DNA of 36,309 bases. It comes from a virus. Where the stretch lies: the IMG/VR virus record IMGVR_UViG_3300023297_000041, positions 1-36,309 of that record. The stretch is one strand, 5' to 3'. How positions within the stretch are numbered: position 1 is the first letter of the stretch; each line of letters starts with the position of its first letter. The position numbers were made by a program, and so were the translations under genes. Positions 15,865 through 35,530 of this stretch are shown piece after piece. The notes under the pieces were generated by a model. The model was not told the DNA's origin. It saw nothing but the letters and a program-made list of their open reading frames with translations, and did not search any database.

Positions 15865-16941
15865 ATGAAAAGGTTACTTTTTTTAATTGTAATAATCACA
15901 CTTCTGGCCGGAAATTGTTTCGGTGGAGCGTCTGGTTATAATTTAGGTGCCGTGGGTCAGCCTATACCATCCGACTGGTTCTCGTCGGGTAGGCAGGTGG
16001 ACTACGGAACTAATGCCCTGCGTAACATGGAGACACTCGTAGCTCTCGGAGTTAATCCAGGCACTGGCTCGATATTCTACGTTGATTCCGGTGTTACAAA
16101 TGAGGGTGATGGTTCCAGCTGGAATAACGCTGTTGACACACTCGACGAAGGCATTAATTTATGCACTGCTGGCCGGGGTGATGTTATCCTCGTAGCACAG
16201 GGTCATACCGAAACAGAGGCTACTTCTGCAACGAGCTTGTTTACTCTCGATGTCGCAGGTGTAACTATTATAGGCTGTGGAAACGGGAGCTACAATTCTG
16301 TGGTTGCTTCCGGTGCCTCCACTGGTCAGATGATGCCCACACTGATTTTAGATGCGGCTGATGCGACTGTGACGATTAGTGCTGCGAACTGTAAGGTTGT
16401 TGGCCTGTTGTTTGTTAGTGATATTGCTGATGTTGCTGTTGGTGTCACCGTTGCTGCGACTGCAGATGGTAGCACTATTCAAGGTTGCGTGTTCAAAGAT
16501 AACGCTGCTAACTTAGAGTTTACAGTGAATATCTCTGTTGCTGCACTGGCACCAGACGTAAAGATACTTGGAAATAAATTCTTTACAACTGCTGCTGCTA
16601 CTACATCTAATGCTATCTTGAGTGCTGCTAATACCGGACTGGTAATCCAAGGCAATACTGCTTATGGGAAATATGCAACTGGAGCTATCTTAACCTCTGG
16701 AGTTTTAACGAGTGCGATTATCACTGATAACATTCTCGTTAATGCAGAAGCCGCAATAGCGATTGCACTTAATGGCACGACTTCAACTGGAATACTTACG
16801 AGGAACTTCCTTGGTGGCGAGGGTAGTACCCTTGCTGCTGTCTTGACAGGTGACGATGCAATGACTTGCTTCGAGAACTATGCCTCCGACACAGCGGGTG
16901 GTAGTGGTGTTATAAACCCAGCCGTTAATGCTGCCGACTAA
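15865..16941 (+). CDS. Signal-peptide-bearing beta-helix protein (surface decoration or fibre)
   Basis: A 358-residue protein behind TTTGGAG. Residues 1-20 form a Sec signal peptide (MKRLL, hydrophobic run, AGNCFGG); the Cys is preceded by Asn, so it is not a proper lipobox. After a linker comes SIFYVDSGVTNEGDGSSWNNA, the opening of right-handed parallel beta-helix proteins, and many short repeating rungs (VTIIGCGNGSY, CKVVGLLFVSD, STIQGCVFKDN, VKILGNKFFTT, LVIQGNTAYGK, SAIITDNILVN). It is probably a trimeric or monomeric beta-helix carried on the virion or released to the cell surface. It lies between two terminators. Confidence 0.7.
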   Translation: MKRLLFLIVIITLLAGNCFGGASGYNLGAVGQPIPSDWFSSGRQVDYGTNALRNMETLVALGVNPGTGSIFYVDSGVTNEGDGSSWNNAVDTLDEGINLCTAGRGDVILVAQGHTETEATSATSLFTLDVAGVTIIGCGNGSYNSVVASGASTGQMMPTLILDAADATVTISAANCKVVGLLFVSDIADVAVGVTVAATADGSTIQGCVFKDNAANLEFTVNISVAALAPDVKILGNKFFTTAAATTSNAILSAANTGLVIQGNTAYGKYATGAILTSGVLTSAIITDNILVNAEAAIAIALNGTTSTGILTRNFLGGEGSTLAAVLTGDDAMTCFENYASDTAGGSGVINPAVNAAD

Positions 16942-16946
16942 TACAT

Positions 16947-16981
16947 GGGAGGGGCTTAGCCTCTCCCTTTTCTTTTTCTTT
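16947..16981 (+). terminator. Terminator merging into the next ribosome-binding site
   Basis: GGGAGGGGC (16947-16955) pairs with GCCTCTCCC (16959-16967) through one G-U pair, with a TTA loop. The U-rich tail TTTTCTTTTTCTTT runs directly into TGGAG, the Shine-Dalgarno of the next gene. No room remains for a promoter between terminator and gene. Confidence 0.85.
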
Positions 16982-16991
16982 GGAGTTTGAA

Positions 16992-17906
16992 ATGAAAACA
17001 ATTCTATTAATTCTGATAATGGTTGTGGCCTTTGTAATTCCAGTAGATGCTGAGCCTCTTGACACCTATCAATCCAGTTGGCACCTTATCCGCGAGACTG
17101 CTGATGAAGATGGTGATAGATTTAGTAACGTGTATGATTTAACAGGCGAAAGTGAAACTGTGCCCGGTGGCAATTTTGCTGGCAAGGATAGCTCTACTGT
17201 TCTCGCTGGTGGACCATTTAGAATCCCCACACTATCTGATACAAGAAGCGAGGGCTATACTCCCGGCTCTAAGTGGATGTTTGCAATCTGCGGTAAGAAC
17301 TACAATGCTCTTGATGATACATTCAGCTATTCCGTAATTGGATGGGGCAAGACAAACGGGATGTTGCAGGTTCTTGCTGAGGGTACTGGTATATTGGGAA
17401 CTCAGGCGGTTAAGGTTTACCCTGACGGCGGCGATGCTATAGGTGAGTTGATTAGCGAAACTGCGGTTACTTACGACCATGTTGGTGCAGCACAAAGCAC
17501 TTATTTTACTGTGACAAACGAAAGCTTTGCCGGTGCAGTACCTTTTATGATAGCGTATGTGACAGGCACAAACATAACTACCGGATTTTACACAGTGGGT
17601 ATATGCACAGACTCTAATAACATACAGATAGCTGTCACCGCCTCAGATGATAATACAGATTCAACAGTACAAATCAACCCTGCTTTCTGGGCCGACACGA
17701 TAGTTTTAGATGCGACAACTAAATGGCCTCTTGATGTAGATGGAGACGGTGCGAATGCACAGGTCTATAACTCTGCTGATAACGAGGTTGCTGTCATTGT
17801 ACTCGATACGACTGGCATAGAGTGGCTGCAATTTGTTATTTGCGGTGCCGATGCTGCTACCGGCGAAGAGGCTGGCGATATTACAGTTTATGGCCGAAGA
17901 TACTAA
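16992..17906 (+). CDS. Signal-peptide-bearing virion/surface protein
   Basis: A 304-residue protein. The start at ATG 16992 follows GGAG by 6 bp; an earlier TTG at 16980 in frame is rejected. Residues 1-20 are a textbook signal peptide ending PVDA before EPLDTYQ. The mature protein is beta-rich, with SEGYTPGSKWMFAICGKNY, YSVIGWGKTNG, GTGILGTQAVKVYPDGG, a Thr/Asp-rich segment, and an ending GEEAGDITVYGRRY. I do not recognise the family; it resembles plain structural proteins located between capsid and tail genes in podoviruses, apart from the signal peptide. Confidence 0.6.
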   Translation: MKTILLILIMVVAFVIPVDAEPLDTYQSSWHLIRETADEDGDRFSNVYDLTGESETVPGGNFAGKDSSTVLAGGPFRIPTLSDTRSEGYTPGSKWMFAICGKNYNALDDTFSYSVIGWGKTNGMLQVLAEGTGILGTQAVKVYPDGGDAIGELISETAVTYDHVGAAQSTYFTVTNESFAGAVPFMIAYVTGTNITTGFYTVGICTDSNNIQIAVTASDDNTDSTVQINPAFWADTIVLDATTKWPLDVDGDGANAQVYNSADNEVAVIVLDTTGIEWLQFVICGADAATGEEAGDITVYGRRY

Positions 17907-17934
17907 ATAATAACAATAAAGATTAGGAGTTGAA

Positions 17935-18597
17935 ATGAATAAGACAGACATTATCAACGCTGCTCTATTCGTTATAGGGTCAAAGAAAATCTTTGCACCT
18001 GCCGATAATACCAAATCCGCAAAATATGCCACTTCAATTTACGATTTCTGTCGGCACTTAGTTTATGATATGCCTATCGACTGGAGATGGGCTATTGCCC
18101 GAAGTAACCAATTAGCCCAACTTGCAGACCCCACCACGGGACCTGACCATCAATATGCACTACCAGATAACTGCGTTAGGCCACTGGCGATGGTTGATGT
18201 AGATGGTGATGAAGTTGAATATACGTTCCAGCCTGGTCTATTGGTGGACGGCGGTAATATTACCAAAACACTGCAAACTAATGTCGATTCCGGCGATGTG
18301 TATATTAAATACATAGTCTTTGTCGAAGATGAGGCGATGTATCCATCTTGGTTCTCACAACTTATTGCTCTAAACATTGCATTATATATTTCAGAGCCTA
18401 TCAAGCAACACACTCCACACTACAATAAAGTAAAAGATATGTTGGATAATGCTTATGTAGTTGCTACCGAGGCGAATGCCTTATGGGGTGTTAAAACCAA
18501 CTCTAAAACCCGCCGACCTGTAGATTTTGGAAACGATGCTCTTGTTAACGCTGCCGTGCAGTCAGAGGGAATTATAATTAATTATGGATTTTGTTAA
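17935..18597 (+). CDS. Tail adaptor, tail tubular protein A (gp11)-like
   Basis: A 220-residue protein behind TTAGGAG. It follows the T7 gp11-type pattern: DIINAALFVIGSKKI at the start, SIYDFCRHLVYDMPIDWRWAIAR (about 34-56), QYALPDNCVRPLAM (about 72-85), VYIKYIVFVEDEAMYPSWF and a helical end. This adaptor ring joins portal and nozzle. It has no signal peptide, in contrast to the genes around it, so it should stay in the cytoplasm with the head. Confidence 0.8.
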   Translation: MNKTDIINAALFVIGSKKIFAPADNTKSAKYATSIYDFCRHLVYDMPIDWRWAIARSNQLAQLADPTTGPDHQYALPDNCVRPLAMVDVDGDEVEYTFQPGLLVDGGNITKTLQTNVDSGDVYIKYIVFVEDEAMYPSWFSQLIALNIALYISEPIKQHTPHYNKVKDMLDNAYVVATEANALWGVKTNSKTRRPVDFGNDALVNAAVQSEGIIINYGFC

Positions 18598-18606
18598 AAG
18601 GCTACA

Positions 18607-19803
18607 ATGAAAAAAGCAATACTAATATTTATTCTATGTGTGGCCACATTGGTATCGGCAATACCGCCACGCAATGTTTATCCCGAGAACATCAAAATAA
18701 GACTTGTTGAAGTTGAGCCGACCATAGTTAACGCCGGCGATGCTGACGGACAGATGCTCTATTGGGACGGCACCAATAGTTACTGGGCCCCATCAGATGA
18801 AGCAAAATTAAAGTGGTTTTCTGCTACAGATATACTTTTAGCAGATACGTTAAACTTAAACAATGCTCTGACGGTCCCTTATGGCGGCACTGGCGGGACA
18901 ACCCTAACCGATGGCGGGATTCTTTTGGGTTCTGGAGCTGGGGCTATTACGGCGCTTGGAGCGGCCTCTAATGGACAGGTGCCTATAGGTGATGGAACTA
19001 CTGACCCTGTTTTAGCAACTATTACCGGCGGATATGCTGTTGATGTCACAAATGCTGCGGGTTCAATAACCGTAGATGTTAATTATACTGATATAAACGC
19101 CAACGAAACCGATCCTTGTTATTCTCTTTTAGGCGTTCCTTATACTGGCGCTGCTGCCGATATATTTTTAGGTAATCATTCATTATATTGCCAATATATA
19201 AAAGCATCAAGTACTATCGTGCCGGCTATTTGGGGCGAAAATACTTATGGCACAGGAGTGTTTGGTACTGCTACTACTGGCACAGGAGTGTTTGGTACTG
19301 CCACTACTGGTTACGCAGGTTATTTTGCAGGAAAAGCTAAAGTAACGAGCACCCTAGTCGTTGACACTTTAATTATTGAGGCGGGCTCTATTACAGATAC
19401 AAACGACAACATAGATTATAACGATACCGATTGGCAAGGAATAGGCTCGCATGTGGCAGGCGATTATACTTCAGTAGTCGCTACTGGCACAGCTCCGTTC
19501 TTTTGTGATTCTACAACTGTTTGCGTGAATTTGAACGCTGATTTGTGGGATGGATACCAGTTTGCAGATTATTTAAATCAAGATGTTACAACAACCGGCA
19601 CACCCACCTTCGCCACCGTAGATGCGGGGTCATCTTGTGAAGCAAATGCTTATACTGTTGGTGGGGTTTCTGGGGTGAGTGGGACGTTAGAACTTGATGA
19701 TGGAACTACAGAAAAAATAACACTTGTATTTACGAGTGGTATTTTAACCTCAAGGACAGTTGCAGCTACAACAAGCTCTGTGTTAGCGGATTGGACCGAT
19801 TAG
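18607..19803 (+). CDS. Signal-peptide-bearing tail fibre
   Basis: A 398-residue protein. Residues 1-18 form a signal peptide (MKKAILIFILCVATLVSA before IPPRN). The mature part has fibre-type sequence: MLYWDGTNSYWAPSD, VPYGGTGGTTLTDGGILLGSG (a motif frequent in phage tail fibres), NGQVPIGDGTTDP, a tandem repeat VFGTATTGTG, and a C-terminal LELDDGTTEKITLVF with a repetitive end. It ends one base before the next ATG. It is probably a trimeric beta-structured fibre on the virion surface that contacts the host. An exported, cell-surface-bound product is the alternative. Confidence 0.7.
   Translation: MKKAILIFILCVATLVSAIPPRNVYPENIKIRLVEVEPTIVNAGDADGQMLYWDGTNSYWAPSDEAKLKWFSATDILLADTLNLNNALTVPYGGTGGTTLTDGGILLGSGAGAITALGAASNGQVPIGDGTTDPVLATITGGYAVDVTNAAGSITVDVNYTDINANETDPCYSLLGVPYTGAAADIFLGNHSLYCQYIKASSTIVPAIWGENTYGTGVFGTATTGTGVFGTATTGYAGYFAGKAKVTSTLVVDTLIIEAGSITDTNDNIDYNDTDWQGIGSHVAGDYTSVVATGTAPFFCDSTTVCVNLNADLWDGYQFADYLNQDVTTTGTPTFATVDAGSSCEANAYTVGGVSGVSGTLELDDGTTEKITLVFTSGILTSRTVAATTSSVLADWTD
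19249..19308 (+). repeat. Two tandem 30-bp repeats in the fibre gene
   Basis: GGCACAGGAGTG followed by TTTGGTACTGCTACTACT occurs twice in tandem (19249-19278, 19279-19308) with one silent change. It encodes GTGVFGTATT twice. The unit is 10 residues, so copy number can change without frame loss, a possible length or phase-variation site in the fibre. Confidence 0.85.
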
Positions 19804-21039
19804 ATGAAATACATTATTATTATATTATTATTTTGTTCGATTACTTTTGGCCTTAATTGGAATCTAAATTCTGATTGCTGGGTAAACTTTGAGGACTTTG
19901 CTATCTTTTCAGATGGATGGCAAACCACTTATGATATAAATGATTTAGCTGATTTTTCAGATGAATGGTTAAGGTATGAATACTATTGCAATGAGCAAGC
20001 TCCAGTTGCTGCTAATTCTGTTGTGAATGTATCGCAATACGAACCTGTTTATATCACATTCTCGGCGTATGACCAAGATGGATTTCTGCCAGTACCACCT
20101 AAACATCTTAAATACCGAATTACTACCCTGCCATCAGATGGCAACGCCTACATTCAAAACACGCTCGAAAATACTTCAAATAGGTTTACCGAAGTCCCTG
20201 ATTGGTGTACTGGCTGGGCGAATAAAGTTATATTTGCTTCCGATACAGTTGGTAATGATACAGTAAAATTTAGGTCTTATGACGGCGAAGAGTTTAGTAA
20301 TGAGGCAACTGTTGACGTTAATGTTATTGCGGCATATGCTGATTATGTATCATTTGATGGTGGCGAAGTTACAATCCCAGATAATGACTATTTAGATATT
20401 AATGATAGTGGCTGGGCAATGAGTATTTGGTATAGAAATATGACCAGCAGTTCCAATGGAAGCATTATTAAAAAAAGAGATAGCAGTCAGGGATGGGATT
20501 TTATTGTTCAATCAGGTAAGTTACTATTTAATCTGTACGATGCGAATGGATTGGTAGTAGCTCTCGAAAGTAACCTCTGCATATCTTATGGCATTTGGTG
20601 GGAAATACTCATTGGAGTTAATGAGGACCCTTGTGATGCTAACAATCAGTATATTTCAATGCAATACTACCAAACAGAAACAAACAGTGGGGAGTATGCC
20701 AATTCAAATGTTTTTGTCTCATCGGTCTACACAAATGATTGCAATGTGATTATCAATCCAAACACTGAAATTGACCATTTAAGATTCTGGGATGATGTAA
20801 GTGAGGAAAGTCATGCAACGACAGTTTTATTCCCAACAAACAGTCGGTGGAATTATACAGAGTCTACATTAGGCATAGGCAATCCATCCAAGGTTCGGTT
20901 TAAAATGGATGAGGGAAGCGGTAGCACAATCACAGATGATAAGGCCAGTGGGCTGGTAGGGACATTCAGCGGGGACGTGTCTTGGATACCTTTGTTTTGG
21001 GACTGGAATAAAAACGGATTACAAAAAATAGAGAACTAA
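19804..21039 (+). CDS. Signal peptide plus dockerin-like plus LamG-type adhesin
   Basis: A 411-residue protein. Residues 1-16 form a signal peptide (MKYIIIILLFCSITFG). Residues 17-60 are dockerin-like: NLNSDCWVNFEDFAIFSDGW and YDINDLADFSDEWL, two calcium-loop/helix halves in the style common in secreted proteins of Phycisphaerae. Residues 65-170 resemble an Ig or cadherin-like domain (EPVYITFSAYDQDG, KVIFASDTVGNDTVKFRSYDG). From 180 on it is LamG/concanavalin-like (DNDYLDINDSGWAMSIWYRN, GSIIKKRDSSQGWDF). It ends with a TAATG overlap into the nozzle gene. It is probably a host-derived glycan-binding adhesin captured by the phage. I would take a fibre role as first choice. Confidence 0.7.
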   Translation: MKYIIIILLFCSITFGLNWNLNSDCWVNFEDFAIFSDGWQTTYDINDLADFSDEWLRYEYYCNEQAPVAANSVVNVSQYEPVYITFSAYDQDGFLPVPPKHLKYRITTLPSDGNAYIQNTLENTSNRFTEVPDWCTGWANKVIFASDTVGNDTVKFRSYDGEEFSNEATVDVNVIAAYADYVSFDGGEVTIPDNDYLDINDSGWAMSIWYRNMTSSSNGSIIKKRDSSQGWDFIVQSGKLLFNLYDANGLVVALESNLCISYGIWWEILIGVNEDPCDANNQYISMQYYQTETNSGEYANSNVFVSSVYTNDCNVIINPNTEIDHLRFWDDVSEESHATTVLFPTNSRWNYTESTLGIGNPSKVRFKMDEGSGSTITDDKASGLVGTFSGDVSWIPLFWDWNKNGLQKIEN

Positions 21040-23624
21040 TGATTAAAAGAGTCCTTATATTTTTGTTGTTATGCTCTAATCTTTTTGGGGCTACAAGTAT
21101 AATCAATGCCTTTAATGCTGGCGAAATATCGCCTCAATTAAATGGTAGAACTGATATTGCTAAGTATTATTCCGGATGCGAGACGCTGGAAAACTTTCTT
21201 GTATTCAGCTATGGTGGAGCGAGTCGACGGCCTGGCACAATGTATATTGCCGATGCCAAAAACTCTGACGAGGCTTGTAGATTAATACCCTTCGAGTTCT
21301 CAACTGAACAAGCTTATATCCTTGAATTTGGCGATGAATATATCAGGTTCTATAAAGATGGTGGGCAGATACAAGATGGGAGCAGCCCTTGCGAAATATC
21401 AACTCCTTATGATACAGACGCTGGCACAAACTTATTTGAGCTGCATTATATCCAATCTGCCGACACGATGTATATTACACATCCAGATTATGCGCCTCGG
21501 AAACTAACTCGAACAGGCCATACATCTTGGACATTAACGGAAGTAGATTTTAAGCGTGGTCCATTCTTAACTGAAAATACTACAACAACAACCATAACAC
21601 CGTCGGCAACGACAGGGACAATCACACTAACCGCCAGTAGTGCTATATTTGATGTGAATGACCACGTTGGTGCTTTGTGGCAGGTAACACATACCGCAGA
21701 GGGGGAATCTGTTTCTGGGTCGTTTTCTCACGATGTTAATGCCCAGGACTCAAACTCACTTACAATGCAGCTCAATCGTAAATATTTGTTCACTACCCAT
21801 GGCACTTGGGCTGGCGATGTGATCCTGCAGCGAAGTTATGATAGCGGGACTGTATGGAAGGATGTCCTTCCTGTTCATTATGAATCTGATGGTAATAGGG
21901 AATATACTGAATCAGAAACCGTCGAGGATGCCATATACAGAGTTCATACCGATGCTAATGATAATGGTATTGATTCAGGCACACTCAAATATAATCTAAC
22001 GGCACTTAGTTTTGATATTGAAGGTGTTGTAGAGTTAACAGTAATAGCGTCCACAACATCAGCAACAGGGACGGTAGAAAATACTCTTGGTGGGACAACT
22101 GCAACCACTAACTGGGCTGAGGGTGCCTTTAGTCTGGATGAAGGATACCCAGCAACGTGCAGCTTCTACGAAGAGCGAATAGCTTATGCCGCCACAACCA
22201 ACCAACCACAAACAGTATGGTTATCCCAAACAGGGGAATGGGATAACTTCCTGGCGGGTAATTTAGATTCTGATGCTATGAGCTATACTATTGCAGCCGA
22301 TGAAGTTAACGCTATCAGGTGGCTTAGTCCCCAAAGCTGGCTGCTCATTGGAACAACTGGCGGCGAGTGGAAGATGGGGTCTGGCTCCGATGGGGCTTTA
22401 ACGCCCACAGATAGAGTTGCAAAAAAACAATCTAATAATGGATCGGCTAATCTGCAGCCGGCAGTATCTAATAATGTTATTATATATGTTCAGAGGCAGG
22501 CTCGCAAGGTTCGAGAGTTAGTTTTTAGCTTTGAAGTTGATAGCTGGTTAAGCCCAGACCTTACGATCCTCAGTGAGCACATAACTAATTCTGGCATTGT
22601 TCAAACGGCTTTTCAAAAAACGCCCGACCCAATACTATGGACAGTACTAACCGATGGCCGTATTGCGACTATGACCTATCAGAGGTCTCAGGACGTTGTT
22701 GGCTGGGGCGAACAGAACTCTGGAGATGCCGATTTTGAGTCGGTGGCGGTAATACCAGGTGATGGCGAGGACGAGGTGTGGGTTTCTGTTGAGCGGTTAG
22801 TGGATGGTTCAATAGTTAGATATATAGAGCAATTCCAACCAAGGGACTTCGGGGCCGACCAAAATGATATATTCTTCGTTGATTCGGGCCTTAGCTTCGA
22901 TGGCGGGGACGCGGTTGTTATTACTGACATAACTTCAGCGTCTCCCGCTGTTGTAACTGCAGCTGCTCATGGCTACTCAGATGGTGACCAGGTGCGAATA
23001 ACATCCGTTGTCGGCATGACCGAAATTAATAACCACGTTTATACTGTTGATGATGCTGCAACAAACACATTTTCTCTTGATGATACGCTTAATAATAACA
23101 TTAATTCAGTGGGTTTCACGGCATATACTTCTGGCGGTTCAGTTGAACAGGTAGAAAATACATTCACAACCCTATCTCACTTAGAGGGCGAGATGGTAGA
23201 TATTTGCGCAGATGGTGAGTTCTATGGCACCGATACAGTCGCAAGCGGAACTATTACGCTTAGTGATTATTATAACACCGTTCACGCAGGTCTAAATTAT
23301 GTTTCAAAACTTGCTCCTATGCAATTAGCGATACCAGGTAATGTTATTGCCGGTAAGACAAAGAGAATTACTGATATTACAGCCCGATTCTACAAGACCT
23401 TGCAATGTAAGTATGGTCCAACTGCTGATTCTGTACTAGACTTATTTGATTTTTCAGAAGAATATACTAATGACATCGATGTCAAGCAGAGCCTGTTTAC
23501 AGGAGAGAGAAAACAGGAATTTGACGGAGACTATCGAACTGTAGGCGAAATATACCTGCAGGTCGATGAGCCAGTGCCATGTTCAATATTGAGTATATCG
23601 CCGGAATTTGAAGTTTATAGATAG
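21039..23624 (+). CDS. Tail nozzle-like protein (tail tubular B-like) with an added signal peptide
   Basis: An 861-residue protein. The conserved podovirus start FNAGEISPQLNGRTDIAKYY (residues 25-44) and NFLVFSYGGASRRPGTMYIA identify the family. Further family motifs: FYEERIAYAATTNQPQTVWLSQTG, WLLIGTTGGEWKMG and QARKVRELVFSFE. An FCCH-type insert lies around residues 631-680 (VVTAAAHGYSDGDQVRI). Unlike the family, it begins with MIKRVLIFLLLCSNLFG, a Sec signal peptide of 17 residues placed ahead of the conserved domain, with no alternative in-frame ATG until the GTM near residue 67. In related phages this protein forms the hexameric nozzle at the tail tip. Confidence 0.82.
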   Translation: MIKRVLIFLLLCSNLFGATSIINAFNAGEISPQLNGRTDIAKYYSGCETLENFLVFSYGGASRRPGTMYIADAKNSDEACRLIPFEFSTEQAYILEFGDEYIRFYKDGGQIQDGSSPCEISTPYDTDAGTNLFELHYIQSADTMYITHPDYAPRKLTRTGHTSWTLTEVDFKRGPFLTENTTTTTITPSATTGTITLTASSAIFDVNDHVGALWQVTHTAEGESVSGSFSHDVNAQDSNSLTMQLNRKYLFTTHGTWAGDVILQRSYDSGTVWKDVLPVHYESDGNREYTESETVEDAIYRVHTDANDNGIDSGTLKYNLTALSFDIEGVVELTVIASTTSATGTVENTLGGTTATTNWAEGAFSLDEGYPATCSFYEERIAYAATTNQPQTVWLSQTGEWDNFLAGNLDSDAMSYTIAADEVNAIRWLSPQSWLLIGTTGGEWKMGSGSDGALTPTDRVAKKQSNNGSANLQPAVSNNVIIYVQRQARKVRELVFSFEVDSWLSPDLTILSEHITNSGIVQTAFQKTPDPILWTVLTDGRIATMTYQRSQDVVGWGEQNSGDADFESVAVIPGDGEDEVWVSVERLVDGSIVRYIEQFQPRDFGADQNDIFFVDSGLSFDGGDAVVITDITSASPAVVTAAAHGYSDGDQVRITSVVGMTEINNHVYTVDDAATNTFSLDDTLNNNINSVGFTAYTSGGSVEQVENTFTTLSHLEGEMVDICADGEFYGTDTVASGTITLSDYYNTVHAGLNYVSKLAPMQLAIPGNVIAGKTKRITDITARFYKTLQCKYGPTADSVLDLFDFSEEYTNDIDVKQSLFTGERKQEFDGDYRTVGEIYLQVDEPVPCSILSISPEFEVYR

Positions 23625-23636
23625 AAGGGAAATAAA

Positions 23637-23843
23637 ATGCCAAAATCAAAATCACCTGACATACAGCCCCCTGCAGCGCCAGCCGCAGCCCCGCCAACAC
23701 CAGGGCCGATAGATACCAGGGTAGCTGGCGAAGATATTAAGAAAAGACAGGCCGCAGCCAAAGGACGCAAGGCCTCTATAGCCACTACTCCAGGCTCACT
23801 GGCGATTAGCGATGTTGATATTCTAAAGAAGACTTTAGGCTAA
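23637..23843 (+). CDS. 68-residue Pro/Ala-rich conserved small protein
   Basis: The N-terminus is Pro/Ala rich (DIQPPAAPAAAPPTPGP), followed by a basic RRQ-type segment (DIKKRQAAAKGRKAS) and a terminal DILKKTLG. Podoviruses often carry a small protein of this design (proline-rich, basic, ending in KKTLLG) between the nozzle and internal protein genes. Function is not established. It has no signal peptide. Confidence 0.65.
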   Translation: MPKSKSPDIQPPAAPAAAPPTPGPIDTRVAGEDIKKRQAAAKGRKASIATTPGSLAISDVDILKKTLG

Positions 23844-25263: not shown

Positions 25264-27068
25264 TGCCGATAATAATACCGCAACGAAAAATACTACCAAC
25301 TAAGCAGATAGCCGACACTCGCGTTACAATGCCGATGGATACATTTAATGGCCAGTTTGCGGCAGGTCAGAACCTTGCTAATAGCGTAAAGCAAGTCGCT
25401 GGGTTTATTGGCGATACCGTTAGTAAAACAATCGTGGCCCAGGGCGAAGAGGAATTTACTCAAGCTAAGTTAGATTATGAAACTGAGTTCCGGACTTTTC
25501 AAGCAGGTTTGGGGCAAGATACAGATTACGCAGGGTATACCAAGAAATTTAATAACTGGCATGATAATTATACCGTAGGCAGAGCAAAATTAATTAATCA
25601 TCGAGGAGCACAATCGAGAGCAAAAGCACAGTTCGATTTGAATAGGGCAGTTAGAGGCAGGACGGTTGATACTAACGCCCAAAACGCACTTGTTAGACAG
25701 ACCAGGGCGGCCATACCGAACAAAATAGAATCTTTTGTTGATGAATACTTAGCAGCTGAGACTCCAGAGACTCAGCATAAATCGGTTGCTGAACGCCATG
25801 GGTATTTCCAAACACTAACGCAAACGGGAGTTTTGAATCCTGATGAAGCTATAGCTATTGAAAAAGATTTCCGGAAAGCTCTAGCAAAGAAGGTTGTACA
25901 AAACACCGTTACGGCCATAGCATTAGAAGAGGGTTGGGAAAAAGCTATTGCATGGGGTGGAGATAACCAAAACATTAAAGAACTGGCAGAAGATTTCGAT
26001 ATTGAATTGTCCGATATTACCGCAGCACTCACGCCGATCATGCAACTGGCTAAAGTAAACAGAGCATCTGGAATTATTGAGCTCAATAAACAGCAAGATA
26101 CTGACAGGGAGTCTTTGCGGGGGTTATTAAATTCTGATAGTTCCGTGGGCTATAATGATGCAATTAACGGATCCAGCTTAATTCCCGAAGAAAGGCTTGT
26201 GTGGGACAATCGTTTCGCTAAAAAAGCAAATCACATCATTGATACAAAACAACAAACAGAAGAAGATAGACTTGGAAATATAATAAATGCCAGGAAGAAA
26301 TCGGATTACGCATCTCTGGTTACCGCATCATCTTTACCTGCTACCAAAAAGGCAGAACTTATTGCTGCCAACGAAACAGCATTAAAAGAATCCACTCATA
26401 TTATTACTGATGAACAGGTTAGGGGCGATCTTGAAGAGATGGCTAACGATATTGCAATTGGAGCGACAACTAAAGCACAGGTAACAGATGCTGCTGACAA
26501 GGCCAGGTATGACGAGGAAACTATCGATGACGCGGCATACAAGCAAATAGTTAAACTTGTTGATAGTGAGTTTACCTCTTACCAGGCAACGGCCATGGGG
26601 GAAGCTATCAGTTATGGTGGTGGCCAATTGATCACTGTAACTCACTCTGTTATTGACGATCTATTAAAAATGCAGGCAGCCGGCCAAGAGGTTAATATCG
26701 AACGAGCAGCAAATAAACGTCAGAGCGAATTATGGAATTTAAGTCAGTACCGCAAGGCTATGAATGATTGGTTGGCCGTGCATCCAGAATCTAATTCAAG
26801 TGAGATATACACCGAATCCAGAAAGCTCTTAGTACATTACAAGCGATCACTGGCTGAGGTAGAAAAGGCACGTACTGGCTTTGAGGAACAATTTATAGCT
26901 GAACCAACAAAAGAAAAGGCTATTGAGGGTGTTAACGTGGTGTTTAAAAAGCCTGTCCGTGTAATGAGTCCTGAAGGCGTGACCGGCTGGAGTAGCGAAA
27001 AAGGATATAACGAAAAATTAAAAGACTTGGGTTTTATAAAGATTAGCGATGCCAATAATACTAAATGA
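25263..27068 (+). CDS. Internal virion protein C (gp15)-like
   Basis: A 601-residue helical protein between the gp14-like and the giant internal protein, the position and size class of T7 gp15 relatives. Features: FNGQFAAGQNLANSVKQVAGFIGDTVSK near residue 24, then long charged helices (EEFTQAKLDYETEFRTFQ) with repeated TPR-like spacing. I see no enzymatic motif and no signal peptide. It is probably part of the ejected core complex that bridges portal and channel. It joins the upstream gene by TAATG and overlaps the next gene by 20 bp. Confidence 0.6.
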   Translation: MPIIIPQRKILPTKQIADTRVTMPMDTFNGQFAAGQNLANSVKQVAGFIGDTVSKTIVAQGEEEFTQAKLDYETEFRTFQAGLGQDTDYAGYTKKFNNWHDNYTVGRAKLINHRGAQSRAKAQFDLNRAVRGRTVDTNAQNALVRQTRAAIPNKIESFVDEYLAAETPETQHKSVAERHGYFQTLTQTGVLNPDEAIAIEKDFRKALAKKVVQNTVTAIALEEGWEKAIAWGGDNQNIKELAEDFDIELSDITAALTPIMQLAKVNRASGIIELNKQQDTDRESLRGLLNSDSSVGYNDAINGSSLIPEERLVWDNRFAKKANHIIDTKQQTEEDRLGNIINARKKSDYASLVTASSLPATKKAELIAANETALKESTHIITDEQVRGDLEEMANDIAIGATTKAQVTDAADKARYDEETIDDAAYKQIVKLVDSEFTSYQATAMGEAISYGGGQLITVTHSVIDDLLKMQAAGQEVNIERAANKRQSELWNLSQYRKAMNDWLAVHPESNSSEIYTESRKLLVHYKRSLAEVEKARTGFEEQFIAEPTKEKAIEGVNVVFKKPVRVMSPEGVTGWSSEKGYNEKLKDLGFIKISDANNTK

Positions 27069-30000
27069 CAAAAAGGTTATAGATAATTCCATCGATGATG
27101 ACATCAGTGATGTATTTATCCCTGACATCCAGCCACAATCGAACGTTATAGCAGATCCTGACAGCGTTGGAAATAATGCCAACGAAATCTACGATATTGC
27201 TGTTAACGCTAGTGCTTCTATATCTGATATAGAAAATAATTTTGTTCCCGATAATCAGATGCAGTCGGTGATCAAAGAGAAGGTAGCCCAAAATGTTATC
27301 ATCGAGCAAGCCCGGATAGCCGAGGATGCAGAGCTCCGATCAGAAGCTCTTGACAGACTCATATTTGGTGATGGCCTGGACGATCCTGTATTCGCCGGAA
27401 AAATTGCAACTACCCTACTAAACCCTGTCGAAAAGGAGAGAATGACGGATGCGATTATTACATCGGGCATGTTTGATATTCCACTTGACCATGTTATGGG
27501 CATGGACGATGCTGCTAGGGCTAAGGTCTTTGGCCCTGAATTAAAAGATATCCGAAAAAAGTTTCAGCAGAACCCATTCGATGGCGGGTTCTTTGCAACA
27601 TCTATAGAGGCTTGGAAACGAGGCGATGCGGGTTTTATGGGTGCGATTAATCTTTGGGATGCTGCTGTTCAAAATGCTGATGAGACTAAAGCCAGAGCAA
27701 CACTGGGAACTCTACAAAGAAAAGAAGTTTTTGAGCCCATCGAGGCTAAGGGTATTAAAAAACTGTTTTATTCATCAATGCAAATCATACCCGGTATGGC
27801 TAGGGGTTCATGGGAAGGTATTGATGAAGCTTTTTATGGTGCGGCTATCGGTGCTGGTATGGCATTAGCAGGTGGAGCTGCTGGGCCACAGGCGGTTATA
27901 CCAGAAGAAATAGTTACTGTTCCTGTTGCCACAATGGGCGGACTTAGGTTAGGTGCTTCAATTGGCTCTGCAAAAGTGTGGTATAAACAGGGTGCTGGTC
28001 AGATGTATTTTGATATGACTGAAAAAGGCTATGATCCAAAGGTCGCAAGGATGGTAGCTGGTGTTGCCGCCGTTCCTTATGCTCTTATCGAATTGAGTCA
28101 GGTTACAAAGATTACACCGGGATTGCGGAAAGTGGCCTTGGATAGATCTATCAAAACCGTTGGCAAAGTATTAGCCAATGCCGTTAAAAAGTATGGTAAA
28201 ACTTGGGGCGAAGAGGTTTTCGAGGAGATAATGCAGGAAATTGTCGCTGTAACCGCCGAAGATATAGCGGGGCTTTTAAGCGAAACAACCAATACTGAGA
28301 AATCTACTTGGGAGGGGTTGTTAAAAAGAGGTAAACGTTTATGGGAAACGGCCAAGGGTGCCGGAGAGGGCATGGCCTTATTGCCGATTCCAAACGCTGT
28401 TATAGATGTCAAGTCGGGGATTCAAAACATATCTGCCAGTACCATATCAAAACAAAAGGTACAGGCTAAAGCTCAGGCCTTGACAGTTTCAAAACTCACC
28501 GATGAGTATAGCTTGAAAGTTGCACAGCAGTCTCAAGGTGTCATTGAGATATTAGAGCAAGCCAAAAAGGGCGTTCCCGCCGATCCTGAGACCGGCAAGG
28601 CGGCAGTACCGCCGAGAGTATTACAGCCCGAAGAGGCCAAAATGTTAACTACTCTCAAAGAAAACCTCTCCACCCCAGAGAACATAGTCCACGACCTTGA
28701 GCTTAATTTGCCACCGGAGGCCTTTGTTACCGAAGAGGCTACTATTCCAACGGAAAAACCGAGTACAGAGCAACTTGGGGCTGTGGAGGTGGTAGAAAAG
28801 ACCATAGACGTTGGGGCACCTGTTGGTAAGGAAGGCATTGAGCTTGAGGACTTAGAGGGGACGCCGGTACCTATCAATGAAGATAACACAATAACTCTCT
28901 ACCACAGAACTTCCATTGAAAACGTCGAAAACATCAGAAAAACAGGTGAATTTGTTTCTAAAGAGCAAGGCGAAGTATTTTTTTCTACCAAAGAAAAAGG
29001 CCAAGCAGAAGGTTTTGGCGAGGGCATTATTGAGATTAAAATAGATCCATCAAAGGTGGCATTAGATGACGCTTTTTCTGGAGGTGAAGTACATGTATCC
29101 GTATCCAACAAAGACATTACAGTAGAAAATATAAGCCAGCCTGAAAGTGTTCCACGTGAAGCAAAACGCATAATCTCAGACGAAGCATATACCAAAGCCA
29201 AAAAAGGCCTATTTGGTAAGGGTTTTCGTTCTGGTTTAGATCCTGTAGATTTCAAAAACGCTGCAATCATAGGGACGTATCATTTTGAGAACATGGCAAA
29301 GGCCGGCATCAAAGGTGCTGTTGATTTTGCTGAATGGTCTAAGAGAATGGTGATTGAGATGGGTGAGACTATCAAGCCACACCTAAAGGATATATGGGAA
29401 AAGGCCAGGTCTCCACTATACGCGGCTATATCTGACAAAGAAGGCCGCAAAATGACCATACGAATTAATAAGGAAATCAGATCTCTAGGCGACTATGAAA
29501 CACTCGCTGAAAGTGGTTCAGCACGCAAAGCCGACCTACTCCAGAATATAAGTAAAATCAACTTTGCTAAAGACAGAAAATCATTGCCGGCAGAAGTCAA
29601 AGAGATGTTGACCGGCGAAAATCGCTGGCTATATGAGTATGTAACAACTACAGAACAAAATCCAAGTGCGTTAACATGGGATGAATTTTCCGAGGACTAC
29701 GGCATTGAGGGTTCAGAAAGCGATGTTTTACAGGCTATTAAGGATGCCGTTCAAGGCGGGAAAGAGGGTGGCATAAACCAAAAGGCGTTAAATGAAATCG
29801 CTAAAACTAATCCTTACGCAGCTATGCTTGTGGAATTAAAAAATGCAGTAGAAAATCGCTTGCCTGGTAACAAGATTAACGATATACTACAAGCATATAT
29901 TAATGAGGACTTGTTAGATGACGAAGCAATTGAACAATGGAAAATCGGTCGAGAGCCGGATAAAAAGAGCACGGGCAGCAAGCCAAAAGATAGTTCAAGA

Positions 30001-32871
30001 CTACCTCGCAAGCCAAAAGTCCAGCCAAAAACCAAACCAAAATCAAAAGTAGCCTCTATACCAAAGACACTGCCGGAGAACTTCGCAGTACGTATGGCTG
30101 AAGAAAATGCCGTGCTGGAAAAGATGCTCGCCGAAATGCAAGCCCTGTCAGAAGGGCAGCAGGACAAAGCTTTCAATACCCATCTCAAAGAAGCCATCGC
30201 CAAAAATACAGCTGACGCTAAACAACTCGAGACTGATCGGGCCAGGATAAACGAACTGTTTGAGAAGAGGGTATTTGACGCATCAACTGGCGAGAGGAGC
30301 ATTAAGGAAATAGCCAAATCAGCTGCTGATAGCATGGTTGAGATAGCTAAGAGCGTTCCTGATATGCTAATCAAGGTATTCGAGCCAGCCAAGCTAGTGG
30401 AGACACGGCTAGGCCCTAACGTATATGCCACAGTAATCAAAGGGATGCACTTATCAGAGCGAAGACTACTGGAATTTAACGAGCAGGTGCTCGACGTTGT
30501 TGATATGAACTTTAGGGAGTTAGAGGAGTTTTTTGCAGGGTTCAGTAAAAATGATTTAAAGAATTTTATGCTATCTCGAGGCAAGCCAAGGGGTGACTTT
30601 GCTAAGGAAATCAGGGACAAAGCCTCTGTTGCAGCGCCGGAGGCGTTGAAAGATGGCGGCTTTGAGCGAGCTATCAAGCAAATTGCCGATTTCAACTACG
30701 CTAAATTATCTGAAGTTGCCGGCGGTGATATTGCTAAGGTTAAAGATTACTTCTATGGCCTATACTCTCAATCACCTTCTGAGGTTGACAAATTCATTGA
30801 CCAATACTACCGCACAACAAAGCGGTTTATGGAAGAAAAGAGTTTACCAACGCCGGCGGATGCACTTGAGTTTGGTTTGACGCTAAAGTCGTATAACCCT
30901 GTTACAAACCTCAAATCTGAATGGATGGGCATTGCCAGGCTCGAGGGGATCCAGACGATGCGTAACGAACTAATGAGAATGGGGCGTGGAAAATATATTG
31001 GATCTGTTATAGAGGATGATATTCCGGATGGTTGGGTAAAGATTGGCACAGAGCCCGTTTTTGATGGATTAAGAGCCAACGAAGACCTTGCTCGTTTAAT
31101 AAACAATCTTATTTCTATTAACAAAACCAGTGCGTATCTGCCATTGCGAACTATTAGGGGGATTAATAATGTTCTTCGGATAGCTAAATTTGCAGGCTCT
31201 GCATTCCATTTAACGGTCGAGGCCTCTCAGGCGGTTGCAGATAGCCCATTGTTGAATCCAGCCTCAGCAACAAGAGGGTTCCAGACGGGCTTTAAGACCG
31301 ATGATCCTGCATTCAAAACACCTGAGTACAGGGATTATGTGGGCCTGGGTGGCCACCAGCGAAGCAGTATTGAATCTGAGTCTCAAGCATTGTTTAGCGA
31401 AATAGTTGCTGCCACGGGCGGGCTTGGTGCTACTATTAAAGTCGCTGCAACCCCACTGAAGATCACAAGCCAGTTTACCGAGTGGATGTTTAGTAGTTAT
31501 ATTCCAAAACTTAAATACGTAAAGTATCTTGATTTCATGTCCCAGCAAGAAAAGAAGCTTGGTCGAAGTTTAACTGATGCTGAAAAGATAAATATTATTA
31601 AAGAAGGCCAGAACTTCTATGGCGAAATGAATGAAAAACTGTTCGGTAGATCAGCTACAGTAACTTCCGTTTTAAGGTTTATATTCCTCGCTCCAGGCTT
31701 TGCAGAGGGTAACTATCGTACAATCGCCAAAGGCGCTACTCAGTGGGGAGTAGGGGATACTTACGCAGCTGGCAGGTCTAGGCGTAACGTTGTTAATTCT
31801 CTAATACTCAAATTGATTGCTTCTACTGTAGGCACAATGATATTAACCGGCAAGCCTCCAGAGAAACCTGAAAAAATTGAGGATGTTCGGGACCTATTCA
31901 AAATTGATACAGGTAAAGTTGACGATAGAGGCCGTAGGATTTTGATAGACACCTTGACCTACGATAAGGACTACTACAATTTATTATTAGGCTGGGCCCA
32001 GCACGGCACAACTTCATTGGGTAAAGAGATTTTGCGGAGAGTTGGCGGCATGAGAGCTCCCCTGGCTGATATAACATACGATTTGGTTACGGTTGCATTC
32101 AATAAAGATATTTACGACTGGAAAGGCGATAATGTTATTCGCAGTACTGATTCGGTCCTTACAAAACTTCAAACGCTCGCAGAATTTGAATTAAAAAAAT
32201 TAGAGCCTATATCGGTATCAGTTTTACGGCAGGGACTAAACAAGGGCATGACTCTTCCGGTAGCTATATTGCAATCAATAACAGGCGTTAGACCCACTTT
32301 GACAGAGGCTGAGATACGTAAAGGCCAGGTATTGCGTGATGTATATGAGTTATGGGGCGAGCGAGAGGAAGTCTTTATCTCTGTCCGTACAACTCGAAAT
32401 CCACGCGGGCGGATAGCAGCTTACAACCAAAAGATCGATAGAGTTATGGGTAGTGATAAAGTACCACCGGACATCAAAGAAGAATTTGAGGGCCAATTGC
32501 GTATCGATACTGAAAAGTTCCTTGAGAACAAAGAGAAAAATTACCAGTCCAGCTCCCACACACTCAAGGAGGCCGAGAGAATCAAGGAGCTATTAGTCAA
32601 TTTCAAAATTGAGCCCAAGGGAATATGGGAAGTATCGCCAGAACTGAGCAAAAGGCTATCAGATTTCACGTTTAAACGCCGACGACTGAAGTCGAAAGTG
32701 GATGATGGCCTGGCCGATTCAGCAGAAACAACACAGTCCTTTATTATGAACGGATTGCAATTAAGGATTGGTAAGGTGGCTAAGGTTGTGGCAAACGCAA
32801 AAGATGCCGAACAGCGGCAGCAGTTAATTGATATTGTTGAAAATTTATTAAATTTAGCAAAAACAGATTAA
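27049..32871 (+). CDS. Giant ejected virion protein with an ADP-ribosyltransferase-like domain
   Basis: A 1940-residue protein, the largest in the window, in the place of T7 gp16. Residues about 270-460 are glycine/alanine-rich, membrane-active-looking helices (AAIGAGMALAGGAAG, EEVFEEIMQEIVAV). Residues about 612-700 match an ART fold: TLYHRTSIENVENIRKTGEF (His619), GEVFFSTKEKGQAEGFG and SGGEVHVSVSNKDITVE (Glu680). Residues about 735-800 have DPVDFKNAAIIGTYHFENM and DFAEWSKRMVIEMG, known from large phage polyvalent proteins. A Lys/Pro linker lies near 970-1005. Later FGSAFHLTVEASQA-type and FSSYIPKLKYVKYL motifs match ejected proteins. I did not find a transglycosylase motif. Confidence 0.75.
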   Translation: MPIILNDKKVIDNSIDDDISDVFIPDIQPQSNVIADPDSVGNNANEIYDIAVNASASISDIENNFVPDNQMQSVIKEKVAQNVIIEQARIAEDAELRSEALDRLIFGDGLDDPVFAGKIATTLLNPVEKERMTDAIITSGMFDIPLDHVMGMDDAARAKVFGPELKDIRKKFQQNPFDGGFFATSIEAWKRGDAGFMGAINLWDAAVQNADETKARATLGTLQRKEVFEPIEAKGIKKLFYSSMQIIPGMARGSWEGIDEAFYGAAIGAGMALAGGAAGPQAVIPEEIVTVPVATMGGLRLGASIGSAKVWYKQGAGQMYFDMTEKGYDPKVARMVAGVAAVPYALIELSQVTKITPGLRKVALDRSIKTVGKVLANAVKKYGKTWGEEVFEEIMQEIVAVTAEDIAGLLSETTNTEKSTWEGLLKRGKRLWETAKGAGEGMALLPIPNAVIDVKSGIQNISASTISKQKVQAKAQALTVSKLTDEYSLKVAQQSQGVIEILEQAKKGVPADPETGKAAVPPRVLQPEEAKMLTTLKENLSTPENIVHDLELNLPPEAFVTEEATIPTEKPSTEQLGAVEVVEKTIDVGAPVGKEGIELEDLEGTPVPINEDNTITLYHRTSIENVENIRKTGEFVSKEQGEVFFSTKEKGQAEGFGEGIIEIKIDPSKVALDDAFSGGEVHVSVSNKDITVENISQPESVPREAKRIISDEAYTKAKKGLFGKGFRSGLDPVDFKNAAIIGTYHFENMAKAGIKGAVDFAEWSKRMVIEMGETIKPHLKDIWEKARSPLYAAISDKEGRKMTIRINKEIRSLGDYETLAESGSARKADLLQNISKINFAKDRKSLPAEVKEMLTGENRWLYEYVTTTEQNPSALTWDEFSEDYGIEGSESDVLQAIKDAVQGGKEGGINQKALNEIAKTNPYAAMLVELKNAVENRLPGNKINDILQAYINEDLLDDEAIEQWKIGREPDKKSTGSKPKDSSRLPRKPKVQPKTKPKSKVASIPKTLPENFAVRMAEENAVLEKMLAEMQALSEGQQDKAFNTHLKEAIAKNTADAKQLETDRARINELFEKRVFDASTGERSIKEIAKSAADSMVEIAKSVPDMLIKVFEPAKLVETRLGPNVYATVIKGMHLSERRLLEFNEQVLDVVDMNFRELEEFFAGFSKNDLKNFMLSRGKPRGDFAKEIRDKASVAAPEALKDGGFERAIKQIADFNYAKLSEVAGGDIAKVKDYFYGLYSQSPSEVDKFIDQYYRTTKRFMEEKSLPTPADALEFGLTLKSYNPVTNLKSEWMGIARLEGIQTMRNELMRMGRGKYIGSVIEDDIPDGWVKIGTEPVFDGLRANEDLARLINNLISINKTSAYLPLRTIRGINNVLRIAKFAGSAFHLTVEASQAVADSPLLNPASATRGFQTGFKTDDPAFKTPEYRDYVGLGGHQRSSIESESQALFSEIVAATGGLGATIKVAATPLKITSQFTEWMFSSYIPKLKYVKYLDFMSQQEKKLGRSLTDAEKINIIKEGQNFYGEMNEKLFGRSATVTSVLRFIFLAPGFAEGNYRTIAKGATQWGVGDTYAAGRSRRNVVNSLILKLIASTVGTMILTGKPPEKPEKIEDVRDLFKIDTGKVDDRGRRILIDTLTYDKDYYNLLLGWAQHGTTSLGKEILRRVGGMRAPLADITYDLVTVAFNKDIYDWKGDNVIRSTDSVLTKLQTLAEFELKKLEPISVSVLRQGLNKGMTLPVAILQSITGVRPTLTEAEIRKGQVLRDVYELWGEREEVFISVRTTRNPRGRIAAYNQKIDRVMGSDKVPPDIKEEFEGQLRIDTEKFLENKEKNYQSSSHTLKEAERIKELLVNFKIEPKGIWEVSPELSKRLSDFTFKRRRLKSKVDDGLADSAETTQSFIMNGLQLRIGKVAKVVANAKDAEQRQQLIDIVENLLNLAKTD

Positions 32872-32884
32872 AAGGATTCTCACA

Positions 32885-35530
32885 ATGAAAAAGTTAATCA
32901 TAGTATTATTGTTAATTGTTTGCAGTTATTCTGTGGCCACTATGAGCAGCCAGTCGGCTAAGACTTCGTTATTTACAGGTGATGCCGTAACAACGGCCTT
33001 TACTTTCACGTTCCCCGTAGATACCGGCTCAAGTGGCTCACACGCTGACCTTGAAGTGTATCTGATTGTAACTGCCACAGGAGTAGCCACGCAGCAGACA
33101 GAGACCACACATTACGCCGTATCTGCCACAAATAACAATTTTACTGCCGGCGGCACGGTTACAATGGTTACAGCTCCAACAGCCCTGCAGCAGCTTTTAA
33201 TTGCTCGAGATTCCGGTATCACTCAGAACAGCGATGTTGGCTCTTCGGGTGTGAGGCTTACTATTGAAAACGCATTAGACAAACTAACCCGGATAGGTAT
33301 TGAGCAACAGGATCAAATCGATAGGTCTATCCATATACCCATAACCGATGACCCTAATCTAAGTATGGAGTTAGGCAGTGCCATTGAACGGGCAAACACA
33401 ACTTTAGGCTTTGATGCCGATGGTAATCCAGAACTTTCGACTACGCTCGAAACAAGCGTTGTTATAACCGCCGCAGGTAAGGGATTGATCGATGATGATA
33501 CTTATGCGGATATGAGAACAACCCTTGGGGTTTCCGCCAGTAGCGAGACTAGTATTAGTGGAATATGGACAAATGTCCAAGATTATGATGCGGTTGGCGA
33601 TGGAGCTACCGATGACACAGTAGCGATTCAGGCGGTAATTGATGCTGCAAGCTCAGGTACAATAATCACAGGCAATGGTGCAACGTATGCAGTAAAAGCA
33701 CTATATCTCAAGAGTGATATTATGTTTAGAGATTTTGATTTTTTCTCAATAGCAATGGCAACCGAGGAGGGCTATGATGGATTGAGCCCAGTGAATATCG
33801 GGCATAACGAAACAGACTCTAATGACTATAATGATATTTATGTAACCAACGTCCATATTGATGGTAACCGAACCAATCAAACAGGGATTTCTTCAGCGAT
33901 GAAGCGATCTGGTTTTAGACTCGCCGGTAAAATGCACGATATATATATCGAGAATAGTTCGGCAACTTACTGTGCTGGTGATGGTATTTGGATGGGGCGT
34001 GGTGCTACATTTACAACTGTAGAAGATGCCAATGTTGCTCTCAAGAGGAATATAAATATAACAAATTGCATATTCAACTGGAACAAAAGGCAAGGTGGTA
34101 GTGGTGACTCTATAGAAGATTCCACTATAACTAACTGCCATTTTAATTATAACGGTAGGGCAATTAACGGTGAGACACTTGCAAACGTTCTGATAGGGGA
34201 TACAGCGTGGACTGACTTTCTTGGTTGTGGTGTATGGATAGAATCTTACCAGGCGTTTGACTTTTGGGGGAATCTTAATTTTGTTAATTGCCAGTTCATC
34301 GATAACGAACGGAGCGGACTCTTGATTCACGGCGGAGACTTTGATCCCGACACAGAAGCGAGCTTTGTTGTTCGAGGCCCACTTAACGTAGTGAACTGTT
34401 CCGGAACGCATGGAACGGGTGAACACTACTCAACTGAATGGAGCTATCTCGATGCGTTTACAATCTCGCCATATAGAGACCACAGAGGTATTGACTGGTC
34501 TCCGTTCTGCAATGATGTTAGTTTTATTAATTGTAATACCATAGATCCAAGCCAAGGCCGTTTGCAGGCTTGGAATGTCAATAGGCTTTCGATAATAGGC
34601 GGTTCTTTTTCGACCATAGTTGGTTCAACTACTGATATGATTTTGAATGCTTGTACAAACGTTAGTCTAAGGCACCCACAAGTATCAGATCCGCCAGATA
34701 CAACGATATCCGTTACTGATTGCACCTTCTTAGATAATAGAACCGAGGAACAGGACGATCTCCGGAGCTTCACAAAGGGTACTATCAGGGATATGTTATT
34801 GTATGAAATCCCAACTACCGCATCTTATGTAAATGCTTTGTGGTTCTTTGATACTACTTCAGGTGGAACCGTAACAGACTGGGGCCAGAACTCCCACGAT
34901 CTAACACTCTCAGCAACAATAAGCAGCTGGACTCATTTTTACGAGGGGTTCAGTCCTTATATCCGCCCATCAGGAGCGTTGACTTTTGATATAGCAGACC
35001 ATGATGATTTTTCTTTTAACGGTACTGCTGATACTGCCTTTTCAATAGTTGCGTTATTAAAATACAACCCAAGCAACGGAACTATTCTTGCGAAGAGAGA
35101 TAGTACTACCGGCTCAGAGCAGAAGGAGTGGTTATTCTACACTAATGGCTCTGACGAGTTGACTTTAGAATTATCTGACAACGATTCTGGAGATGGTGGT
35201 AAAGTTACATCTGCCACTGATGCTAATATGACAGCAGATGAGGATGAGGTTCACTGTTACGCAGTTTCTTATGATGGCAGTGCAGCGGGAACTGGGATTG
35301 CTTTCTACCGGGATGGAACCGCAATGGCAGCCACAGCAGCAGATGCTGGAACCTATACTGCTATGAGAAATACTACTTCCAAAGTTGGAAACTACTACAT
35401 AAATACCGTACCGGCAAACGTTACGGGACGGCACTCCTATTTAACTGTTATGGTTATAAGAGAAGAGTTATCAGCTGCCAATATGAAAAGAATAAGCGAT
35501 TTATTACTAAGCTATGCAAACGCCAATTAA
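32885..35530 (+). CDS. Tailspike with signal peptide, virion-binding domain, beta-helix and LamG-like end
   Basis: An 881-residue protein with AAAAGGA upstream. Residues 1-18 are a signal peptide (MKKLIIVLLLIVCSYSVA). Residues 20-160 are the usual phage fibre head-binding domain: TSLFTGDAVTTAFTFTFPVD, ALQQLLIARDSGITQ and NALDKLTRIGIEQQDQIDR. Residues 233-244 DYDAVGDGATDD start a pectate-lyase-type beta-helix with rungs such as ITNCIFNWN and FVNCQFIDNERSG. From about residue 651 there is a LamG/concanavalin-like domain (ALWFFDTTSGG, TILAKRDSTTGS). An in-frame ATG at 32942 (codon 20, MSSQSAK) sits exactly after the signal peptide but has no good ribosome-binding site. Likely role: receptor binding or glycan depolymerisation. 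Confidence 0.8.
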   Translation: MKKLIIVLLLIVCSYSVATMSSQSAKTSLFTGDAVTTAFTFTFPVDTGSSGSHADLEVYLIVTATGVATQQTETTHYAVSATNNNFTAGGTVTMVTAPTALQQLLIARDSGITQNSDVGSSGVRLTIENALDKLTRIGIEQQDQIDRSIHIPITDDPNLSMELGSAIERANTTLGFDADGNPELSTTLETSVVITAAGKGLIDDDTYADMRTTLGVSASSETSISGIWTNVQDYDAVGDGATDDTVAIQAVIDAASSGTIITGNGATYAVKALYLKSDIMFRDFDFFSIAMATEEGYDGLSPVNIGHNETDSNDYNDIYVTNVHIDGNRTNQTGISSAMKRSGFRLAGKMHDIYIENSSATYCAGDGIWMGRGATFTTVEDANVALKRNINITNCIFNWNKRQGGSGDSIEDSTITNCHFNYNGRAINGETLANVLIGDTAWTDFLGCGVWIESYQAFDFWGNLNFVNCQFIDNERSGLLIHGGDFDPDTEASFVVRGPLNVVNCSGTHGTGEHYSTEWSYLDAFTISPYRDHRGIDWSPFCNDVSFINCNTIDPSQGRLQAWNVNRLSIIGGSFSTIVGSTTDMILNACTNVSLRHPQVSDPPDTTISVTDCTFLDNRTEEQDDLRSFTKGTIRDMLLYEIPTTASYVNALWFFDTTSGGTVTDWGQNSHDLTLSATISSWTHFYEGFSPYIRPSGALTFDIADHDDFSFNGTADTAFSIVALLKYNPSNGTILAKRDSTTGSEQKEWLFYTNGSDELTLELSDNDSGDGGKVTSATDANMTADEDEVHCYAVSYDGSAAGTGIAFYRDGTAMAATAADAGTYTAMRNTTSKVGNYYINTVPANVTGRHSYLTVMVIREELSAANMKRISDLLLSYANAN

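Follow-up and report, generated by a model that had tools for sequence, protein, structure and literature searches.

The window, that is, the whole stretch of DNA analysed here (36,309 nucleotides), is an entire IMG/VR virus record, IMGVR_UViG_3300023297_000041, and represents a podovirus. Its genes (Table 1) run from the small and large terminase through portal, scaffold, capsid, cement, two accessory genes and the adaptor, and then continue with two accessory genes, the nozzle, two acetyltransferase-like genes, the internal proteins at the gp14, gp15 and gp16 positions and the tailspike. The portal belongs to the head-to-tail connecting family (PF12236), and the presence of an adaptor together with a gp12-type nozzle (phrog_394 and phrog_376; Foldseek matches 8ck1 and 6r21) places the module among the T7-like-tailed podoviruses of the HTVC010P/BPP-1 type, although the signal-free nozzle and fibre that are usual, if not strictly defining, for such modules are not the case here. 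No single-subunit RNA polymerase, the enzyme looked for as a test of Autographiviridae, was found in the window, a possibly incomplete record, and no unassigned ORF of that size is present. Membership in the Inoviridae, which form an ssDNA filament and have membrane extrusion machinery, is ruled out by the tailed-phage terminase, portal and capsid. Given the phage integrase gene at 1823-2452 (PF00589), the phage may be temperate. Other genes include, by sequence, one for a CsrA-like protein at 5993-6178 (MLVLSRKVNERILIGDDIVITIV...), with a CsrA-like ORF also found in the record behind L099 (L201:159-422), and a small lipoprotein-like gene at 3131-3433 (LFLTGC) that is weakly similar to the Cor superinfection-exclusion protein and whose signal lies outside the tail module. 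The acetyltransferase-like genes after the nozzle (23852-24740; phrog_4177) are neighbouring paralogues, and relatives usually have only one.

Table 1. Head and tail genes of the window (SP, signal peptide; the last column gives SP-bearing members in contigs with an SP nozzle)
Feature	Position	Strand	SP in the window	Support	SP in SP-nozzle contigs
Portal	9793..11499	+	none	PF12236, E 5e-59	0/21
Scaffold-like protein (PHROG annotation: protease)	12924..13748	+	none	phrog_458	0/22
Major capsid protein	14272..15300	+	none	phrog_212	0/13
Cement/head decoration protein	15350..15805	+	none	phrog_427	0/10
Accessory tail protein (right-handed beta-helix)	15865..16941	+	15865-15924		
Accessory protein	16992..17906	+	16992-17051		
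Tail adaptor (gp11/gp4-like)	17935..18597	+	none	phrog_394, E 5e-26	0/30
Accessory protein, adaptor-nozzle interval	18607..19803	+	18607-18660		
Accessory protein, dockerin-like N-terminus and LamG-like region (by sequence)	19804..21039	+	19804-19851		
Tail nozzle	21039..23624	+	21039-21089	phrog_376, E 4e-209	
gp14-like internal virion protein	24742..25263	+	hydrophobic N-terminus, not a typical SP	phrog_418	
gp15-position internal virion protein	25263..27068	+	none		0/21
gp16-position internal virion protein (1940 aa)	27049..32871	+	none		
Tailspike: head-binding domain, beta-helix, LamG-like C-terminus	32885..35530	+	32885-32938		

A preliminary description of this DNA claimed six tripartite, signal-type N-termini, and all six are found where it placed them. 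With the cut points (marked by a slash) set by eye according to the -3/-1 rule, they read MKRLLFLIVIITLLAGNCFG/GAS at 15865, MKTILLILIMVVAFVIPVDA/EPL at 16992, MKKAILIFILCVATLVSA/IPP at 18607, MKYIIIILLFCSITFG/LNW at 19804, MIKRVLIFLLLCSNLFG/ATS at 21039 (the nozzle) and MKKLIIVLLLIVCSYSVA/TMS at 32885 (the tailspike). In all six the n-region contains K/R and the clean core of nine residues has a Kyte-Doolittle value of 3.2-4.1, and the features of a Sec/SPase I substrate, a positive n-region, a hydrophobic core and a polar c-region with small residues at -3 and -1, are present in the sequence. The ORF of the 16992 protein formally opens at TTG 16980, yet it is ATG 16992 that has GGAG upstream. 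The same description held that portal, scaffold, capsid, cement and adaptor lack such a segment, and this is borne out, as none of them has a clean hydrophobic 9-mer in residues 1-28; the terminase and both large internal proteins likewise have none within the first 28 residues. The N-terminus of the gp14-like protein (about 24742) is of the transmembrane type, like that of ordinary podophages. The signal detector was rule-based, with shuffled sequences and 400 kb from a Phycisphaerae genome as controls, and scored 0.7% of the shuffled N-termini as positive. When ORFs up to 5.5 kb upstream of the nozzle were scored, 30/86 were signal-positive in contigs with an SP nozzle versus 17/581 elsewhere (p=7e-18).

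At least two of the six tagged proteins had been taken for virion parts, and those two can be named as such, one being the nozzle and the other a tailspike with a head-binding domain. That the protein at 21039..23624 is the nozzle, with the T7 gp12/Carin-1 fold, is firmly established, as PHROG, the structure model and Foldseek agree: the AlphaFold (AF2) model has a mean pLDDT of 90.9 (57-60 for residues 1-20, the claimed signal peptide region) and matches the Carin-1 nozzle (8ck1, TM 0.79), T7 gp12 and P22 gp10. Residues 639-705 of the nozzle form a domain that matches the FCCH domain of ubiquitin-activating enzyme E1 (PF16190, E 1e-10). For the 15865 protein (AF2 pLDDT 71), the Foldseek matches are polysaccharide lyases and tailspikes.

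Relatives were sought in IMG/VR, in 84,980 species genomes and in several hundred genomes of planctomycetes, selected by phylum and by class; the portal protein, used as a query, found none. For the nozzle we used a test that ignores the choice of start codon and asks for a hydrophobic core ahead of the conserved motif. Such a core was found in 43 of 230 distinct nozzles, two of which were false (codons upstream of the true Met), so the N-termini are bimodal, with 41 that carry an SP and 189 that have the usual stretch of about 10 residues. With the two false cases set aside, core hydrophobicity does not overlap between the groups (median 3.2 in SP nozzles versus at most 1.6 in the others). 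In a FastTree phylogeny of 227 rows, from which the N-terminal columns were excluded, 39 of the 41 SP nozzles fall in one clade of 41, whose only members without the signal are L226 and L118; these are two nested losses inside the SP clade. This tree supersedes an early one of 55 nozzles in which the SP groups appeared scattered. SP nozzles L127 and L376 lie outside the main clade, but FastTree gave a long-branch warning, so that it is unsure where L376 and L090 belong, and deep placements are provisional. Nozzles of the SP group share only 40-59% identity with that of the window. One subgroup has LamG-like insertions in its nozzles (L130:10004-13435, L038, L053, L129 and L064).

Related contigs show the same division between head and tail that the preliminary description proposed to look for. 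We applied profiles seeded from the window's proteins to the SP-nozzle contigs; as these contigs were chosen by their nozzle SP, the nozzle count is not evidence, and the spike serves as the independent test. Head, adaptor and gp15-like proteins never carry a signal there (0/117), whereas proteins with the spike head-binding domain do so in 7/7 SP-nozzle contigs versus 1/50 others (p=3e-8). The accessory beta-helix family of the 15865 protein has an SP in 28/36 members in these contigs, and several of the misses are truncated ORFs. Among the gp14-like proteins 2/32 were flagged, of which only that of L103 is convincing; at L103:10573 an apparent signal peptide stands ahead of the usual membrane segment of this internal virion protein. 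In the sister phage L226, a natural loss variant, the signal is absent from nozzle and spike (5424 and 9798) and present on two accessory proteins, and L118 likewise has nozzle and spike without, and accessory proteins with, the signal. This joint loss suggests that nozzle and spike are required in the same compartment. A strict nested rule, by which export of the nozzle implies export of the spike, holds for the 7/7 head-binding spikes but had to be rejected, as it is broken in one subgroup by L038, L367 and L306, in which the nozzle carries an SP but the fibre-like protein after the gp16-position gene does not. L362 and L263 also have a protein without SP after that gene. L090 (17264) is discordant: its tailspike carries an SP and its nozzle does not.

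Several signs point to removal of these segments. In nozzles without an SP, the motif F-x-x-G-E comes after about ten residues (exactly ten in 104/133); in the window nozzle, the 17-residue signal peptide is followed by ATSIINAFNAGE, and SP nozzles in general would keep 7-12 residues before the conserved F after the presumed cut, compared with 10 in most homologues that lack it. Cleavage would therefore give back an N-terminus of native length. The small -1/-3 residues of the nozzles lie at a near-constant distance from the conserved core, the -1 residues having been set by hand so that the composition at -1 is partly there by construction. Pairwise identity is about 26% in the signal segments versus 59% in the adjoining nozzle core, as expected where only physico-chemical character is kept. 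In one sister pair, the SP-less spike of L226 (M-TVASSESIRE) begins exactly at the cut point of L094 (AAA/TVPAGETIRE). Spike homologues elsewhere start with MTIS..., MTVA... or similar, and in the window spike MKKLIIVLLLIVCSYSVA is followed by TMSSQSAKTSLF, in which what appears to be the old start methionine is still visible. Behind divergent signal peptides, L099 and L100, homologues of the 16992 protein, retain E/V-P-x-x-[ST]-Y-x-S-S-W-H-L as their mature start. Many SP starts are preceded by Shine-Dalgarno sites, and we found no in-frame start with such a site in the stretch from the segment to the conserved core of the nozzle. Start sites downstream of the hydrophobic segments, which would have overturned the original claim, are thus unsupported. 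The idea of two pools of each protein is also disfavoured for the nozzle, as no SP-less start exists from which simple re-initiation could make a second form. Taken from sequence, the six N-termini are probably cleavable Sec/SPase I signals, and we infer both translocation and cleavage.

Tailed phages are understood to assemble in the cytoplasm, where the particle is complete before lysis. Tagged and untagged proteins are divided where the short-tail pathway enters its last steps, and we suggest that the virion could be built in two compartments. The distal tail (nozzle, tailspike and the beta-helix/LamG accessory proteins) would be exported to the periplasm through Sec, and portal, capsid, internal proteins and adaptor would stay in the cytoplasm, where the heads would be filled with DNA and capped by the adaptor. 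When the inner membrane opens at lysis, the two halves would join at the adaptor-nozzle interface, so that final assembly would take place outside the cytoplasm. We regard such a build, with its boundary at that interface and joining only at inner-membrane opening, as plausible, with a probability that falls at or a little short of even; joining of head and tail at lysis is itself a conjecture that could go either way. For P22, in vitro joining of heads to tail parts was reportedly found by Israel et al. in 1967 (cited in PMC3741392). Heads capped by the adaptor alone may not hold their DNA, as P22 heads are leaky when gp10/gp26 are missing. A strict form of the rule is weakened by the fibre-like proteins without SP in L038, L367 and L306, by the discordant L090 and by the signal on the L103 gp14-like protein.

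Other readings of the signals appear clearly less probable. The segments might be Sec-targeted but kept as membrane anchors, with tail parts gathering at the inner membrane, where heads dock and the virion is put together bound to the membrane, on its cytoplasmic or periplasmic face. The strong hydrophobic cores and the membrane-type gp14-like proteins of the same phages would fit this, but an anchor needs no cut site, and neither the near-constant spacing of the -1/-3 residues before the core nor the sister protein that begins exactly at the cut point would be expected; we consider it unlikely. Slightly less likely still is export for a second job, such as surface display, superinfection exclusion or polysaccharide breakdown, with the virion using a small unexported fraction. 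The accessory proteins do resemble secreted beta-helix/LamG polysaccharide-active proteins and keep their signals in L226 and L118 where the nozzle has none; for the nozzle, however, no outside job is plausible and no start without the SP exists, and it lost its signal jointly with the spike. Export for folding, on the view that big tail proteins rich in beta structure depend on the oxidising, calcium-rich periplasm, gets the same low probability. Beta-helix and LamG domains are present, and mature SP nozzles are slightly richer in cysteine (0.77% versus 0.58% in SP-less ones), but this gap is smaller than one standard deviation (0.33), homologues of the same fold manage without a signal, and folding would explain why the proteins are exported instead of offering another route. 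An artefact, through capture of genes for secreted host proteins together with their signals or through wrongly placed start codons, is very improbable, since, although the accessory proteins share domains with host secreted proteins, the nozzle and the spike head-binding domains are phage-specific, the trait is retained across nozzles down to about 40% identity, and Shine-Dalgarno sites precede many SP starts with none downstream.

The suggestion that the signals reflect a planctomycete-type host was partly supported as to the host but not as to the cause. Three clade members lie in genome bins, L094 in a Phycisphaerae MAG, L095 in a Planctomycetota MAG of the same class, and L226, binning of phage contigs being weak host evidence; in addition, the LamG segment inserted in the nozzles of one subgroup matches many Phycisphaerae proteins, and the C-terminus of the window spike is related to it. 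The SP-tail phage family therefore probably infects planctomycetes, and the group probably consists of Phycisphaerae phages. That the trait is common to all planctomycete podophages was rejected after N-termini were compared across 392 genomes: the signal is missing from all eight nozzles of other planctomycete podophages whose N-terminus is intact. The trait thus belongs to the phage lineage, and host phylum alone does not explain it. A search for dedicated literature on phages of Phycisphaerae found none.

The preliminary description knew of no phage with a signal-tagged tail set, and no precedent turned up in the open-access literature that we searched. Podoviruses of the HTVC010P/BPP-1 type (Pelagibacter phages, Bordetella BPP-1 and Cobetia Carin-1) have the same nozzle fold and share the order of portal, scaffold, capsid, cement, adaptor, nozzle, acetyltransferase-like protein, gp14-like protein, internal proteins and tail fibre. 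Their nozzles and tail fibres, however, start with MARVAVQ.. or MAIDIS.. and have no signal peptide, and no block of accessory proteins with SPs is present in these phages. The closest working parallel comes from the Inoviridae, in which the virion proteins pIII and pVIII of filamentous phages carry type I signal sequences and pass through SecYEG (PMC4823517). Only the use of Sec is common to both, as an ssDNA filament is extruded through the membrane there, whereas here the head of a tailed dsDNA phage is cytoplasmic and the tag is confined to the distal tail. Lambda Lom and similar moron proteins are phage encoded, have a signal peptide and lie near tail genes (PMC12309495), but Lom is a host outer-membrane protein and not part of the virion, unlike the tagged nozzle and spike. 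The virus is thus a recognisable podovirus, and what appears to be new, as judged from its genes and those of its relatives, is a conserved, non-random signal tagging of the distal tail.

The trait marks a group of probable Phycisphaerae phages, in which L226, L118, L090 and L127 offer natural gain and loss variants for testing why the tail is exported. Export might let tail proteins fold in the periplasm, conceal them from cytoplasmic defences by which tails are sensed or blocked, or keep tail enzymes away from substrates inside the cell. If our reading is true, a stable lineage that exports exactly its distal tail would follow a different assembly logic, and the final joining step of assembly would be one that can be moved across a membrane.
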